A DNA stretch of 26,270 nucleotides from a virus. Made by a program: the position numbers and the translations under genes. The stretch covers positions 1 to 26,270 of IMG/VR virus record IMGVR_UViG_3300034374_001723; one strand, 5' to 3'. Under the pieces are notes generated by a model. That model ran no database searches, had not been told where the DNA came from, and was given only the letters and a program-made list of their open reading frames with translations. Shown here in pieces: positions 15,577 through 26,207 of the stretch; the first letter of the stretch is position 1, and each line of letters opens with the position of its first letter.

Positions 15577-15593
15577 TCTGACAGGTTGTCAGA
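15577..15593. promoter_or_regulatory. 17-bp palindrome, locus A (single copy)
   Basis: TCTGACAGGTTGTCAGA: perfect 7-base arms around a 3-base spacer. It lies between the phased repeat and the AGGAG of the DUF3150-like gene. On the transcribed strand the right arm runs directly into AAAAGGAG, so it could act as an operator in DNA or as a 7-pair, 3-loop hairpin beside the ribosome site in RNA. Confidence 0.65.
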
Positions 15594-16388: not shown

Positions 16389-16625
16389 TCATTTCTCCCA
16401 TCGCTTTGGATTGAATTGTTTAGCTGTCTCGAACGCACTCTCGTGAGAGCAGACCGCAGCAGCTTGTTTGTGTTGCTCGATTATCGGGAATTGCTTGGGC
16501 GCCCCCCACCCTTGGGATTCGGCACACGGCTTGCAATACTCGAAATATTTAGCGCGATCCGCCGGGTACAGTAAGCCGCAACGTACGCAACCATGTTCTG
16601 ATAAGTTAGCTTTGGTCTTGCTCAT
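16389..16625 (-). CDS. 78-aa zinc-finger-like protein
   Basis: Start at ATG 16625, five bases after AGGAG; the longer frame to 16682 has no ribosome site. Seen: HGCVRCGLLYPADRAKYFEY followed by CKPCAE, two CxxC pairs 18 residues apart, a classic treble-clef or zinc-ribbon spacing, then a polar tail with a further Cys (AAAVCSHESAF) and ending NPKRWEK. Overlaps the 72-aa gene upstream by 20 bases and is followed two bases later by the phosphatase. Probably a small zinc protein of the early region; partner unknown. Confidence 0.7.
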   Translation of the reverse strand: MSKTKANLSEHGCVRCGLLYPADRAKYFEYCKPCAESQGWGAPKQFPIIEQHKQAAAVCSHESAFETAKQFNPKRWEK

Positions 16626-16824
16626 CACGGCTCCTCTTTTCCTGCTCAATGGCAGCCTGCTCGGCTCGCTTCTCCTGCTCAACGACTGCCCCTTCTAGGT
16701 CATCGTAGAACGCGTACAGTTGACTGCATATCGGACGGGTGACGTACAGTGGCAAATCCATATCAAGAATGAGGTCGTCAATCTTGTCTAACAGGTCGTC
16801 GATTTTGTCTAGTTGTTCGTGCAT
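16606..16824 (-). CDS. 72-aa coiled-coil protein, first gene left of the regulatory hub
   Basis: ATG 16824 with GGAG seven bases upstream; the frame opens at 16866 inside the palindromes, so the internal ATG is preferred. The N-terminus has a heptad-like duplication LDKIDDLLDKIDDLILDMDL, then LYVTRPICSQLYAFYDDLEG and a charged helix rich in Glu, Lys, Gln and Ala ending RDEQDQS. The sequence predicts a helical hairpin or dimer. Two 17-bp palindromes end 16 bases before the start, so it is probably controlled by whatever binds them. Function unknown. Confidence 0.6.
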   Translation of the reverse strand: MHEQLDKIDDLLDKIDDLILDMDLPLYVTRPICSQLYAFYDDLEGAVVEQEKRAEQAAIEQEKRSRDEQDQS

Positions 16825-16840
16825 AAGTAGTCTCCGTTTT

Positions 16841-16875
16841 TCTGACAAAGTGTAAGATTCTGACAAAGTGTCAGA
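16841..16875. promoter_or_regulatory. Tandem 17-bp palindromes, locus B
   Basis: TCTGACAAAGTGTAAGA (16841-16857, one arm mismatch) and TCTGACAAAGTGTCAGA (16859-16875, perfect), exactly 18 bases apart. They precede the ribosome site of the 72-aa gene; on its strand the pair ends TGTCAGAAAAACGGAG, matching locus A (TGTCAGAAAAGGAG). Confidence 0.7.
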
Positions 16876-16952
16876 AATCGCTCAGTGCTGGGCGTTGCTC
16901 ACAGTCCCTCTCCCAGCATCATTATTATCCCATTTCCCCAGATTTGGGTCAA

Positions 16953-16958
16953 ATTATA
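16953..16958 (-). promoter_or_regulatory. Possible -10 box (TATAAT) for the leftward block
   Basis: On the minus strand TATAAT occurs inside CGAGTTTCTATAATTTGACC, about 130 bases before the 72-aa gene and upstream of palindrome locus B. No good -35 hexamer is seen 16-18 bases earlier. A short palindrome AGAAAC-TC-GTTTCT (16958-16971) overlaps it and could be an operator. The only non-iteron signal seen between 16876 and 16982. Confidence 0.3.
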
Positions 16959-16982
16959 GAAACTCGTTTCTCTAACTCTTAT

Positions 16983-17367
16983 ATTGCAACCATTGCAACT
17001 TTAGCGTTTTTGAGGAGGTTGCAGAATGAAATCCAGTAACTACGCGGGCTGTGGGTTGCTTTGCAACTTTGCAACCATTGCAACCTTGGTTTGACTACGA
17101 TCTGTGAAAATAGGCCGGAGGGGGGAGGAAGGGGAGAAATCTCCCAGAATTCACAGGAGTGACGTTTTGGAGGTTGCAATGGTTGCAATGGTTGCAATAC
17201 AAAATAAGAAAAAATAAAAAATTAAATAAATATAATAATAATAGTAACTTAGTACCAAATCCCCCCACCCAATTTACTACCCCCTATTGCAACCTTGCCG
17301 TTTTTCCAAAGGTTGCAATGGTTGCAATACCCCTCTACCTAATGCTACCAATGCAACCTTTGCAACC
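16983..17367. repeat. GGTTGCAAT iteron cluster, candidate replication origin
   Basis: About 14 copies of a 9-base unit GGTTGCAAT or its complement. Inverted set: 16983, 16992, 17060, 17068, 17077. Direct set: three exact head-to-tail copies at 17172-17198. Then mixed: 17286 inverted, 17311 and 17320 direct, 17350 and 17359 inverted; a degenerate copy is at 17017. Two more sit at 18766-18782. The unit holds the palindrome TTGCAA. Iterons in tandem at 9-base spacing, both orientations, beside an AT-rich tract in a gene-free region are the classic layout of an iteron origin. No coding potential is seen in this stretch. Confidence 0.65.
17199..17250. other. AT-rich tract beside iterons (candidate DNA unwinding element)
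   Basis: Directly after the three perfect iterons, about 50 bases contain almost only A and T (only two G and one C by eye): AAAATAAGAAAAAATAAAAA followed by ATTAAATAAATATAATAATA. Sharp contrast with the C-rich and mixed sequence on both sides. Fits a duplex-unwinding region of an origin (inference). Confidence 0.6.
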
Positions 17368-17394
17368 TTTTTTATATCGAACATGTTTATCTAA

Positions 17395-17555
17395 TGGCAG
17401 TTAGCCTGAAGGAGAACTGGTTTCTGTTTTTCTGACAAGTTGTAAGATTCTGACAATCTGTCAGATTTTTTGGCGTGGTGGCAATGCGCCACAAGGGAAC
17501 TGGTTTCTGTATCTGGGGGGACGTGGCAGTTAGCCACAAGGGAACTGGTTTCTAT
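17395..17555. repeat. 32-bp repeat in three copies with GGC-N5-GCC core
   Basis: Copies at 17395-17427, 17479-17510 and 17524-17555. Shared form: TGGCAGTTAGCCACAAGGG followed by AACTGGTTTCTGT. Copies 2 and 3 start GTGGC-N5-GCCAC with different N5 (AATGC, AGTTA), so the short hairpin is kept while its loop varies; copy 1 is less perfect. Intervals are 84 and 45 bases, and palindrome locus C lies between copies 1 and 2. No open frame crosses them. Confidence 0.65.
17431..17465. promoter_or_regulatory. Tandem 17-bp palindromes, locus C
   Basis: TCTGACAAGTTGTAAGA (17431-17447) and TCTGACAATCTGTCAGA (17449-17465), 18-base period, same order and same C-to-A arm change as locus B. No gene starts beside it: leftward lie the iterons, rightward the 32-bp repeats. 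Confidence 0.7.
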
Positions 17556-17561
17556 AGGCAC

Positions 17562-17593
17562 AAAAAAAAGGGCAGACTCCGAAGAGCCTGCCC
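17562..17593 (-). terminator. Rho-independent terminator with UUCG loop, after the 40-aa gene
   Basis: On the minus strand: GGGCAG-G-CTC-TTCG-GAG-T-CTGCCC (17593 to 17570) followed by eight T. One mismatch in the stem; AAA/TTT extend it on both sides, so it may also work rightward. Near copy of the hairpin at 17743-17764. It is eight bases beyond the stop of the 40-aa gene. Confidence 0.85.
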
Positions 17594-17600
17594 TTTGGGT

Positions 17601-17723
17601 TTACTTTTTTATCAATTCTACCGTTACAGGAAATTCGTTTTCGTAGAATATAGATATATGTTTTAGAGCGGTTTCGATATCGAGGTCTTTAGAGATACCT
17701 AAACAGGTTATTCGAACGATCAT
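17601..17723 (-). CDS. 40-aa orphan mini-protein between twin terminators
   Basis: ATG 17723 has GGAG six bases upstream; an ATG two codons earlier is too close. Reads MIVRITCLGISKDLDIETAL, continuing KHISIFYENE and FPVTVELIKK, stop TAA at 17601. The pattern beta strand, helix, beta strand suggests a compact fold. It lies alone between two near-identical UUCG-loop terminators, so it is either its own transcription unit or read through from the 220-aa gene upstream. No family recognised. The strong ribosome site, balanced composition and terminator spacing argue for a real gene. Confidence 0.65.
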   Translation of the reverse strand: MIVRITCLGISKDLDIETALKHISIFYENEFPVTVELIKK

Positions 17724-17735
17724 AATCATCTCCAG

Positions 17736-17764
17736 AAAAAGAGGCAGGCTCCGAAGAGCCTGCC
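17736..17764 (-). terminator. Rho-independent terminator with UUCG loop, after the 220-aa gene
   Basis: Minus strand GGCAGGCTC-TTCG-GAGCCTGCC (17764 to 17743), a perfect 9-pair stem with an exceptionally stable C(UUCG)G loop, then TCTTTTT. It starts eight bases after the stop at 17772. The following TCTGGAG supplies the ribosome site of the 40-aa gene, so terminator and next gene are directly joined. Confidence 0.85.
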
Positions 17765-17771
17765 CGATAGA

Positions 17772-18434
17772 TCACTTGGTTTTCTTCAGGGTAATCCCTG
17801 CTGAACACCAGCCGTTGGTCATAGCAGTATCCATCTGCTTGATTTCGTCAGTACCGAATTCCTCGCGGAAGGTATGCAGGACTCGCGTGATAAACTTCGC
17901 GCGATCAACCTGTGCCTGCGTAGCATTATCCGGTGAATTCTGCTTAAGCAGGTAGTGCATCGCGCCGACAAAGCGCTGATCCGCTGACCACTCGGTCTTG
18001 TCGGCTTTGTTGCGCGGGCTACTGCCTTGCGCTACCGCACCATTGCGAAGCGCTTCGACGTATTCAAGCCAACCCATCAGCGCCTTGAAAGGCCGTCGAA
18101 TCTCGACGGTGACTAGTTGATCGTACGCTTTCTTCGCGTCTTCGCTCCAATCCTTACGTTCTGGCTTGGTGCTTTTCAGCATACGCTGTTCCGACTTCGG
18201 TCGCGTAGGGATCACCAGATCCTTGAAACATTCGCAAAGCGGATGGCCCTGCTTGAACGTATCTGGGAACTTGTCACGCGTCAGGCCCGCGTCGATCAGC
18301 AGGGTCGCCGTCTTTTCCGCTTGCTTGCGGAAATTGCTACCCGACTTGGCGAACTTGTCGATTTCAGCGCCAGACATAGCGTCTTGGTTACGATCGATTT
18401 CAGCAGCAGCGTTAGTTATAGATTGAATAGACAT
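17772..18434 (-). CDS. 220-aa phage protein in the regulatory hub, function unknown
   Basis: ATG 18434 with GGAG nine bases upstream; a start five codons earlier is open but lacks a ribosome site. Mostly helical and charged: SIQSITNAAAEIDRNQDAMS, EIDKFAKSGSNFRKQAEKTA, then TRDKFPDTFKQGHPLCECFK, a basic middle (RPKSEQRMLKSTKPERKDW), RRPFKALMGWLEYVEALRNG and a C-terminal part with FITRVLHTFREEFG and a Gly/Ser/Thr-containing ending LKKTK. No enzyme motif. An isolated cistron with its own leader, palindrome set and terminator beside the candidate origin suggests a highly expressed regulator or origin-binding protein (inference). Confidence 0.65.
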   Translation of the reverse strand: MSIQSITNAAAEIDRNQDAMSGAEIDKFAKSGSNFRKQAEKTATLLIDAGLTRDKFPDTFKQGHPLCECFKDLVIPTRPKSEQRMLKSTKPERKDWSEDAKKAYDQLVTVEIRRPFKALMGWLEYVEALRNGAVAQGSSPRNKADKTEWSADQRFVGAMHYLLKQNSPDNATQAQVDRAKFITRVLHTFREEFGTDEIKQMDTAMTNGWCSAGITLKKTK

Positions 18435-18489
18435 AAGATATAACTCCAATAGGATTAAAAGAAATGTGCCGGTTTGTGCCGGACACAGG

Positions 18490-18507
18490 TATATAGTGAC
18501 CTATATA
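18490..18507 (-). promoter_or_regulatory. Palindrome with T7-promoter-like sequence upstream of the 220-aa gene
   Basis: TATATAG-TGAC-CTATATA, perfect 7-base arms. Read on the minus strand, TTATATAGGTCACTATA matches the T7 promoter TAATACGACTCACTATA at 12 of 17 positions, including the whole TCACTATA end, but lacks the GGG start. It lies about 55 bases before the 220-aa start. Either an operator or a promoter for a phage RNA polymerase not encoded here. A direct repeat TGTGCCGG (18465 and 18475) sits between it and the gene. Confidence 0.35.
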
Positions 18508-18525
18508 AACGTGTTTGGATAGTTT

Positions 18526-18560
18526 TCTGACAATCTGTCAGATTCTTACAATCTGTCAGA
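18526..18560. promoter_or_regulatory. Tandem 17-bp palindromes, locus D (inverted orientation)
   Basis: TCTGACAATCTGTCAGA (18526-18542) and TCTTACAATCTGTCAGA (18544-18560), again an 18-base period. The imperfect member is on the right, so the pair is inverted relative to loci B and C and faces the late operon. About 92 bases upstream of the 220-aa start and directly next to the G-quadruplex motif. Confidence 0.7.
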
Positions 18561-18565
18561 AAATG

Positions 18566-18590
18566 CCCCCCCACCCTACCCCCACCCCCC
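18566..18590 (-). other. Strict G-quadruplex motif
   Basis: On the minus strand four G runs of 6, 5, 3 and 7 are separated by loops of 1, 2 and 1 base (plus strand: CCCCCCCACCCTACCCCCAC then CCCCC). The first base is six from palindrome D. Such short loops predict a very stable quadruplex. Confidence 0.75.
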
Positions 18591-19010
18591 GTGGCTGGAG
18601 CAGGTACCATAGGCCCGCGTATACATACTATTACGCTCAAACGATTGGCGATTATTTGTCCCAATAAATCTAATAATATTTATTGTCCGGGCATTAATCT
18701 AAGTTACCTAAACAAGTTTACTCCCCACCCCCTTAAGTACGTCTTGCGACCACCCCTTAAACAAAGGTTGCAAAGTTGCAATGCCCCCTCCCCCCTTCTT
18801 TTTGAAACCCCGTCCTACTTACCCCACCCCCTCCATTTCCGGCATACCCCCCGTCAGGAGTCCCGAGGTACTTACACAAACAAATTTTTGTTATTTAACT
18901 TAGCTTTGATTTCTGCAATGTTCTTATTTTAGTGGCAGGCTATAGCCCTTACCCCATTTAGCTTTTAGTTCTTTCTGCCACCTATGCCACTTTTTTTGGA
19001 AAACTTTTTA
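18591..19010. other. Gene-free stretch between the divergent blocks
   Basis: No credible gene. It holds two further GTTGCAA iterons (18766-18782) and several C-rich runs on the plus strand (18721-18755, 18783-18835). There is a GGCTATAGCC palindrome (18938-18947) and an inverted repeat GTGGCAG/CTGCCAC (18932-18938 with 18975-18981) followed by ATGCCAC and seven T. A 15-base sequence CTTTGATTTCTGCAA (18904-18918) recurs exactly at 19061-19075. The late promoter is probably in this stretch or just after it, but I cannot point to a convincing -35/-10 pair. Confidence 0.5.
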
Positions 19011-19060
19011 TCTAACAGTTTCTAACACTTTCTAACAGTTTCTAACACATCCCAACACTT
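19011..19060. repeat. Five 10-bp phased TCTAACACTT repeats
   Basis: Consecutive units TCTAACAGTT, TCTAACACTT, TCTAACAGTT, TCTAACACAT, CCCAACACTT. Perfect 10-base period, one helical turn, located 173 bases before the first late gene. Directly followed by the second copy of CTTTGATTTCTGCAA. Probably binding sites for a late regulator or curved DNA. Confidence 0.75.
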
Positions 19061-19094
19061 CTTTGATTTCTGCAACACGCGTGATATTGTGAGT

Positions 19095-19183
19095 TAGGGG
19101 CTACATGTTTCACCTATTAATCTCCTTGAGCGCCCCTATTTATGCCCTCGCCGACGACTCCACACGTTGCGAGGGTTCTTTTT
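19095..19183 (+). promoter_or_regulatory. Two-hairpin leader of the terminase operon, second hairpin terminator-like
   Basis: Hairpin 1: TAGGGGC (19095-19101) with GCCCCTA (19132-19138), seven pairs. Hairpin 2: CCCTCGC (19145-19151) with GCGAGGG (19169-19175), seven GC-rich pairs and a 17-base loop, followed by TTCTTTTT. It would end rightward transcripts 50 bases before the small-terminase gene, so it may be an attenuator or a target for antitermination. Confidence 0.55.
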
Positions 19184-25761: not shown

Positions 25762-26207
25762 TGGCTGAGAATAGATTAAATAGAGACTTAGAAAAGCGTG
25801 AGCGAACTCCACGTAAAAAGGCGTGGGAGCGCCCCGAAGTCCTACCTAATCCGACTCCTGAGCCGGGGTACACGTACCATTGGGTGCGTATTAGTACTCA
25901 GGGTCAACCTGATCCTACGAATGTTTCCTCAAAACTGCGTGAAGGTTGGGAACCCGTGCTGGCTACCGATCACCCAGAGATTTTCTTGACCGGAATTGAA
26001 AATGAACGGTTCAAAGATAATATCGTTATAGGTGGTCTGTTGCTGTGTAAGGCACCACAGGAATTGGTAGATGAGCGTAATGAGTACTACCAGCAACAGG
26101 CCAAAGGCCAGATGACTTCTGTGGATAACAACCTGATGCGCGAAAATGATCCGAGGATGCCTCTGTTTAATGACAGAAAGTCCACGGTTACTTTTGGTAA
26201 AGGTTAA
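25761..26207 (+). CDS. 148-aa head-region protein, function unknown
   Basis: ATG 25761 overlaps the scaffold stop by one base (TAATG). Basic start AENRLNRDLEKRERTPRKKA, then PEPGYTYHWVRISTQGQPDP, SSKLREGWEPVLATDHPEIF, DNIVIGGLLLCKAPQELVDE and a polar C-terminus (NLMRENDPRMPLFNDRKSTV). The core 'W-x-R-x-S...D-x-x-N-x-x-x-K-L-x-E-G-W-E-P-V...I-x-x-G-x-L-x-L-x-K-x-P' occurs in a common class of phage proteins lying between scaffold and capsid genes. A capsid-associated or assembly protein is likely; the exact role is not known. Confidence 0.65.
   Translation: MAENRLNRDLEKRERTPRKKAWERPEVLPNPTPEPGYTYHWVRISTQGQPDPTNVSSKLREGWEPVLATDHPEIFLTGIENERFKDNIVIGGLLLCKAPQELVDERNEYYQQQAKGQMTSVDNNLMRENDPRMPLFNDRKSTVTFGKG

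Follow-up and report, generated by a model that had tools for sequence, protein, structure and literature searches.

The replication origin of SaPIbov1 carries an A/T-rich stretch between its iterons. Rep proteins of SaPIs recognise their iteron origins via the C-terminal domain, and a staphylococcal Cch protein with a DUF927 domain is related to SaPIbov1 Rep, while Cch2 binds direct repeats downstream of its own gene, where a partner primase starts (PMC7581432). In phage NrS-1, a single protein combines primase and helicase and primes from a specific 8-nt sequence (PMC7102993). Here we describe an array of 9-bp boxes that is likely, with a probability of about 0.75, to be the replication origin of a podovirus of about 61 kb; the literature searched nowhere describes an origin for phages of this group. 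The window, the whole stretch of 26 270 nt analysed, comes from a virus record whose gene content is that of such a podovirus, with leftward replication genes (SNF2-type helicase, RecB-type nuclease, family-A polymerase, VRR-type nuclease, AAA+ ATPase, and VWA-like protein) and rightward terminase, portal, and virion genes. No integrase was recognised in this podovirus. Two further contigs from other metagenomes, G001 and G003, are 100% identical to the window over 17.5 kb, and G001 (36 kb) extends its genome leftward. Relatives at 42-88% protein identity have the same gene order as the window.

A both-strand array of 9-bp boxes beside an A/T-rich tract

The array comprises 16 boxes matching GGTTGCAAT with at most two mismatches on either strand within 16983-17367 (8 exact, 4 with one mismatch, and 4 with two), where the first-pass annotation had counted about 14; the three exact head-to-tail copies and the adjoining tract of about 50 nearly pure A/T bases that it described are indeed present (Table 1). 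On the plus strand the order is −−, ++ (weak), −−−, +++ (exact), A/T tract, −, ++, −−−, and spacing within the groups is 9 bp, in tandem, except for a single 8-bp step. Allowing at most one mismatch, the window contains 25 copies of GGTTGCAAT where 6.3 are expected (the shuffles reached 12 at most), and 12 of the 25 are inside the array. Within the gap 16867-17565 the best 9-mer family counts 14 members, compared with a mean of 4.5 and a maximum of 8 in 60 dinucleotide shuffles, so chance is excluded. Nowhere else in the window are there at least five copies of any 7-mer per 500 bp. The A/T-richest 40 bp of the whole window (17204-17243, 97.5%) lie in the tract. The short ORFs at 16979-17197 and 17159-17404, which cross the repeats, are mechanical and do not count as genes here. 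An outlying small pair of boxes is found at 18766-18782.

When viral contigs were searched for the exact triple 9-mer, the sole matches were two copies of this same virus and, in an unrelated contig, one repeat that is probably coding. Neither Megablast nor blastn against phages, with the window or the array as query, gave a useful match, and Rfam and tRNA searches gave none.

Table 1. Positions of the array and surrounding features in the window
Feature	Position	Strand	Remark
954-aa primase-DUF927 helicase, first 202 codons	1-607	−	Candidate initiator; complete in G001/L090:16942-19806
Single TCTGACANNNTGTCAGA palindrome	15577-15593		14 bp before in-frame ATG of 382-aa ORF
Pair of 17-bp palindromes TCTGACANNNTGTCAGA, 18 bp apart	16841-16875	.	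Presumed operator, apart from iterons
Iteron group 1, two tandem boxes (16983, 16992)	16983-17000	−	Same place and strand in L013 and L014
Two degenerate boxes (17017, 17054)	17017-17062	+	Two mismatches each
Iteron group 2, three boxes (17060, 17068, 17077)	17060-17085	−	Conserved in L013 and L014
Iteron group 3, three exact tandem boxes	17172-17198	+	Abuts A/T tract
A/T-rich tract (94% A+T)	17199-17245	.	Presumed DNA unwinding element; abuts group 3
Iteron, single exact box	17286-17294	−	
Iteron group 4, two exact tandem boxes	17311-17328	+	
Iteron group 5, three boxes (17341, 17350, 17359)	17341-17367	−	
Three AACTGGTTTC copies (17415-17424, 17498-17507, 17543-17552)	17415-17552	+	Each behind short inverted repeat
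Second TCTGACANNNTGTCAGA palindrome pair	17431-17465	.	
225-aa gene	17772-18449	−	Position conserved, sequence not; unsupported as initiator
Third TCTGACANNNTGTCAGA palindrome pair	18526-18560	.	Upstream of 225-aa gene

The gap that holds the array (16867-17771) has leftward genes on both sides (16606-16866 and 17772-18449) and does not separate the leftward from the rightward block, as had been thought; the strand change comes at about 18450-19166, ahead of the small terminase gene. Four tandem 10-bp repeats, TCTAACA(G/C)TT, occupy 19011-19060 upstream of that gene. A turn in cumulative GC skew, put forward earlier as a check on the origin, does occur in most genomes of the family, within about 0.2-5 kb of the array, but it follows gene orientation and cannot be separated from it, since the genes diverge there too, and it was therefore not counted as origin evidence.

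Several other elements share this region. An RNA element, a phage promoter, and a packaging site are all conceivable roles for AACTGGTTTC, a conserved companion of the array: in the form AACTGG(T/C)NNC it occurs in 2-4 copies, with a genome-specific leader, in the corresponding region of most relatives. G001 and G003 end inside the third AACTGGTTTC copy (17548-17550), through strain variation or at a physical end. The TCTGACANNNTGTCAGA palindromes near leftward units are probably operators of a regulator; one relative, G006, has a palindrome of its own, TTGATGACAAGTGTCATCAA, in seven copies. Two near-identical terminator-like hairpins, GGGCAG(A/G)CTC-CGAA-GAGCCTGCCC, at 17570-17592 and 17743-17765 bracket a possible leftward ORF of 42 aa. 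In the relatives examined, a leftward gene of 181-271 aa stands to the right of the array, with mostly unrelated sequences, and judged from these sequences the position appears to be a hypervariable early-gene position. The 225-aa gene found there in the window, once suggested to bind the boxes, is thus an unlikely binder; it also has no relatives by tblastn or among families.

The same slot in related phages

For comparison, the slot was defined as the region from the leftward block to the small terminase gene and extracted from relatives. Of 16 genomes, 14 have their A/T-richest 40 bp in this slot, and in the remaining two the slot ranks second. Among the nearest relatives, the boxes correspond almost one for one to those of the window in place and orientation (−− −−− +++ [A/T] − ++ −−−): measured from the A/T tract, 14 boxes differ in place by no more than about 30 bp, and in strand not at all, among the window, L013, and L014. 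The unit itself differs by genome, all copies changing together (GGTTGCAAT, GGTTACAAT, and GGTTACATT/GGTAACATT). At the place of group 3, L013 has three copies of GGTTACAAT and L014 has two of GGTTACATT plus one of GGTAACATT; the stretch reads GGTTACAAT three times and then ATATAAAAAATAAAATAATAA in L013, GGTTACATTGGTTACATTGGTAACATTACATAAAATAAAAATAAAAA in L014 (=G005), and GGTTGCAATGGTTGCAATGGTTGCAATACAAAATAAGAAAAAATAA in the window. Throughout the shared layout, all boxes of L013 and L014 have A where the window unit has its central G. The layout beside an A/T tract, which the first-pass annotation proposed to look for in related phages, is kept, whereas the exact 9-mer is replaced, and the TTGCAA palindrome, from which it suggested binding in both orientations, is not essential, as near relatives carry TTACAA or TAACATT at the same places. 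The same order and strands of boxes at near-identical distances, with a different unit throughout, are the mark of a bound sequence that changes with its protein, and such a coordinated change is expected if the repeat evolves jointly with an initiator protein of the phage.

Further from the window the pattern is less regular. L015 (=G006) has a similar but less clean layout with units TGTCACAAA/GGTAACAAA, and its strand string is ambiguous because these units overlap on both strands; unit types in other relatives are ATGTTCC-, AATGTTC-, AACATTA-, TGGAACA-, and AACGGTA-. Analogous clusters in mixed orientation are found in this slot across the family. A strict test for exact 6-mer tandem pairs on both strands was positive only in slots, with a spacing of 9 in 5 of 26 genomes and of 8 or 10 in a few more, and gave zero positives in 337 kb of flanking DNA. 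When clustered 7-mers were counted more loosely, most of the family scored positive, with the more distant members lacking the 9-bp spacing, and these looser boxes count against the origin reading. Rhizobium phage TM3_14A has its A/T maximum in the slot and no clear 9-bp boxes, and no comparable array was found in the terminase-flanking region of the terminase relatives HTVC023P, HTVC027P, 023Pt, and DSL-LC04.

Two cultured Pseudomonas phages, Rollin and KPP25, show the same design as the window array. In Rollin, TTGCATACTTTGCATACTTTGCATATTTATATACAAAATAATAATAATAA lies at L217:~527-580 and TATGCAA occurs eight times at 260-679, both strands included; this phage also encodes a protein related to the candidate initiator described below (29% over 90%). 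KPP25 carries GTTACGATGTTACGAT and TCGTGACAATCGTGACAA, boxes of 8 and 9 bp, beside an A/T tract at 26.4-26.7 kb, and a second complete array with an A/T tract at about 58.25-58.55 kb (L134:8250-8550); its ORF056 is a primase of another group. These two far-apart modules are perhaps two origins, and they speak against a single-origin model, which does not predict them.

A primase-DUF927 helicase as candidate initiator

No O-like or Rep_3/RepA-type initiator was detected among the window proteins scanned, in agreement with the earlier remark that no lambda O-like protein is obvious, and no DnaA boxes occur near the array, the one TTATCCACA in the window, at 26120, being within chance and fewer than expected. 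The only initiator-like protein found is the 954-aa primase-helicase, and no other origin-binding candidate was recognised. It contains a Pfam DUF927 domain (E 8.7e-24), and a profile of 38 of its relatives matches PDB 8tch (E 2.5e-23) and 5dgk (E 7.3e-15). When the AlphaFold2 model of a 64%-identical relative (mean pLDDT 84, pTM 0.58) was searched with Foldseek, 8tch, the SaPIBov1 replication initiation protein with helicase activity, was the best match, followed by Cch, and SaPIbov1-Rep-like structures took ranks 1-4. The N-terminal part matches the folds of S-2L PrimPol 6zp9 (E 6.7e-8) and RepB' primase 3h20; the model thus points to an archaeo-eukaryotic primase fold, for which the sequence signal by itself is weak. 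A separate C-terminal region is predicted in the modelled relative. A relative of the primase-DUF927 helicase in Rhizobium phage RHph_TM3_14A (L135:42239-45322) is annotated as 'putative integrase'.

Because this initiator is a primase-helicase and not O-like, the lambda-like comparison drawn earlier was wrong in kind. The origin reading itself is backed, far beyond what the window by itself could show, by the kept architecture, the coordinated box change, the A/T tract, and the presence of a SaPIbov1-Rep-like initiator. This fused primase-DUF927 helicase, which the phage itself encodes and which is related to SaPIbov1 Rep, would be the likeliest initiator, and we rate the odds that it binds the boxes as somewhat better than even. 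Two observations argue against it: its gene start (window 607) lies 16.6 kb from the array (17172), SaPI origins being beside rep, and its C-terminal ~130 aa have no sequence match to any solved structure, this being the part with which SaPI Rep binds DNA. In 80 further loci searched near primase genes only one lag-9 cluster was seen, so the array is not simply adjacent to the primase gene.

Taken as a whole, the best explanation, and a probable one, is an iteron origin melted and primed by the primase-DUF927 helicase, and we infer binding, melting, priming, and initiation at the array along the following lines. The initiator would bind the 9-bp boxes flanking the A/T tract on both sides, assemble into rings, and melt the tract; it would then load itself as the helicase, travel outward, and prime synthesis, which the phage's family-A DNA polymerase would extend. 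A more speculative and rather doubtful extension is that the boxes have a dual use, as duplex sites for the DUF927 helicase and as template starts for the fused primase, such that one phage protein would recognise, melt, and prime its own origin, and block-wise switching of boxes would create replication specificities separating co-infecting relatives. If the iteron-origin explanation is true, it provides an origin and a matching initiator for a widespread environmental group of ~61-kb podoviruses, links tailed-phage replication to staphylococcal island initiators, and presents a set of natural origins whose iterons have all changed in concert, which makes initiator-iteron specificity directly testable, including in the cultured phages Rollin and KPP25.

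Other readings and comparison with known systems

The two modules of KPP25, which sit at gene-block junctions, and the looser arrays of distant relatives keep alive an unlikely alternative, namely that the boxes are operators of a phage transcription regulator for leftward genes and divergent promoters, with the A/T tract as promoter DNA. The array does lie in an intergenic gap of the regulatory region, and promoter-like sites exist, at a number near chance (5 vs 3.0). However, separate palindromic operators already precede the leftward genes, and operators do not need about 385 bp of boxes on both strands around the genome's A/T maximum. Moreover, no regulator travels with the array, and the neighbouring gene is not conserved.

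A role in packaging (pac/cos) or partition, in which the boxes or the AACTGGTTTC elements would be sites for terminase or a segregation protein, is improbable, even though the small terminase gene is 2 kb away, the two identical contigs stop inside the third AACTGGTTTC copy (at window 17548 and 17550), and a few more contigs end close to such an element. The window contig continues straight through 17550, the ends of complete relatives are elsewhere, and no ParA/ParB-like gene was seen among the proteins scanned. Assembly breaks near AACTGGTTTC were not accepted as proof of genome ends. We consider it very improbable that the inverted groups are a foldback priming signal, a cruciform or single-strand hairpin instead of protein-bound duplex iterons. 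Groups 4 and 5 can pair as a DNA hairpin, 17308-17370 as single-stranded DNA folds far better than shuffles (z = −6.7), and the opposed orientation is retained in L013 and L014, but groups 1-3 are not close-range hairpin partners, the identity of boxes within a genome is kept and not pairing alone, and a hairpin has no need of direct tandems.

Read as an iteron origin, the locus shares features with several described systems. Iteron plasmids and lambda ori likewise have tandem repeats adjoining an A/T-rich unwinding region, whereas the units here are 9 bp long and in both orientations. NrS-1 also joins primase and helicase in one protein, but its genome has only two recognition sites and no array, its helicase domain is unmatched by the 954-aa protein in profile or fold, and it is without another DNA polymerase, while this phage has a family-A enzyme. 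The DUF927 helicase of SCCmec Cch (PDB 5dgk) matches the profile of the 954-aa protein (E 7e-15); in contrast, the repeats of Cch2 are three 5-nt AAGTG units, and Cch/Cch2 modules have no phage structural genes. The initiator helicase of the SaPIbov1 replicon (PDB 8tch) belongs, by both sequence profile and fold, to the family of the 954-aa protein, and its origin consists of several short repeats (PMC7581432), as here, where they are multiple and beside an A/T-rich stretch. Unlike that replicon, the present element belongs to a podovirus, its primase domain is fused to the helicase, its 9-bp unit varies by lineage, and its array is far from the gene, whereas in the SaPIbov1/Cch type the origin is directly downstream of rep. 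Judged by this comparison, the placement of the array sets the locus outside full membership of the SaPI type, and its SaPI-type behaviour would be a functional likeness.
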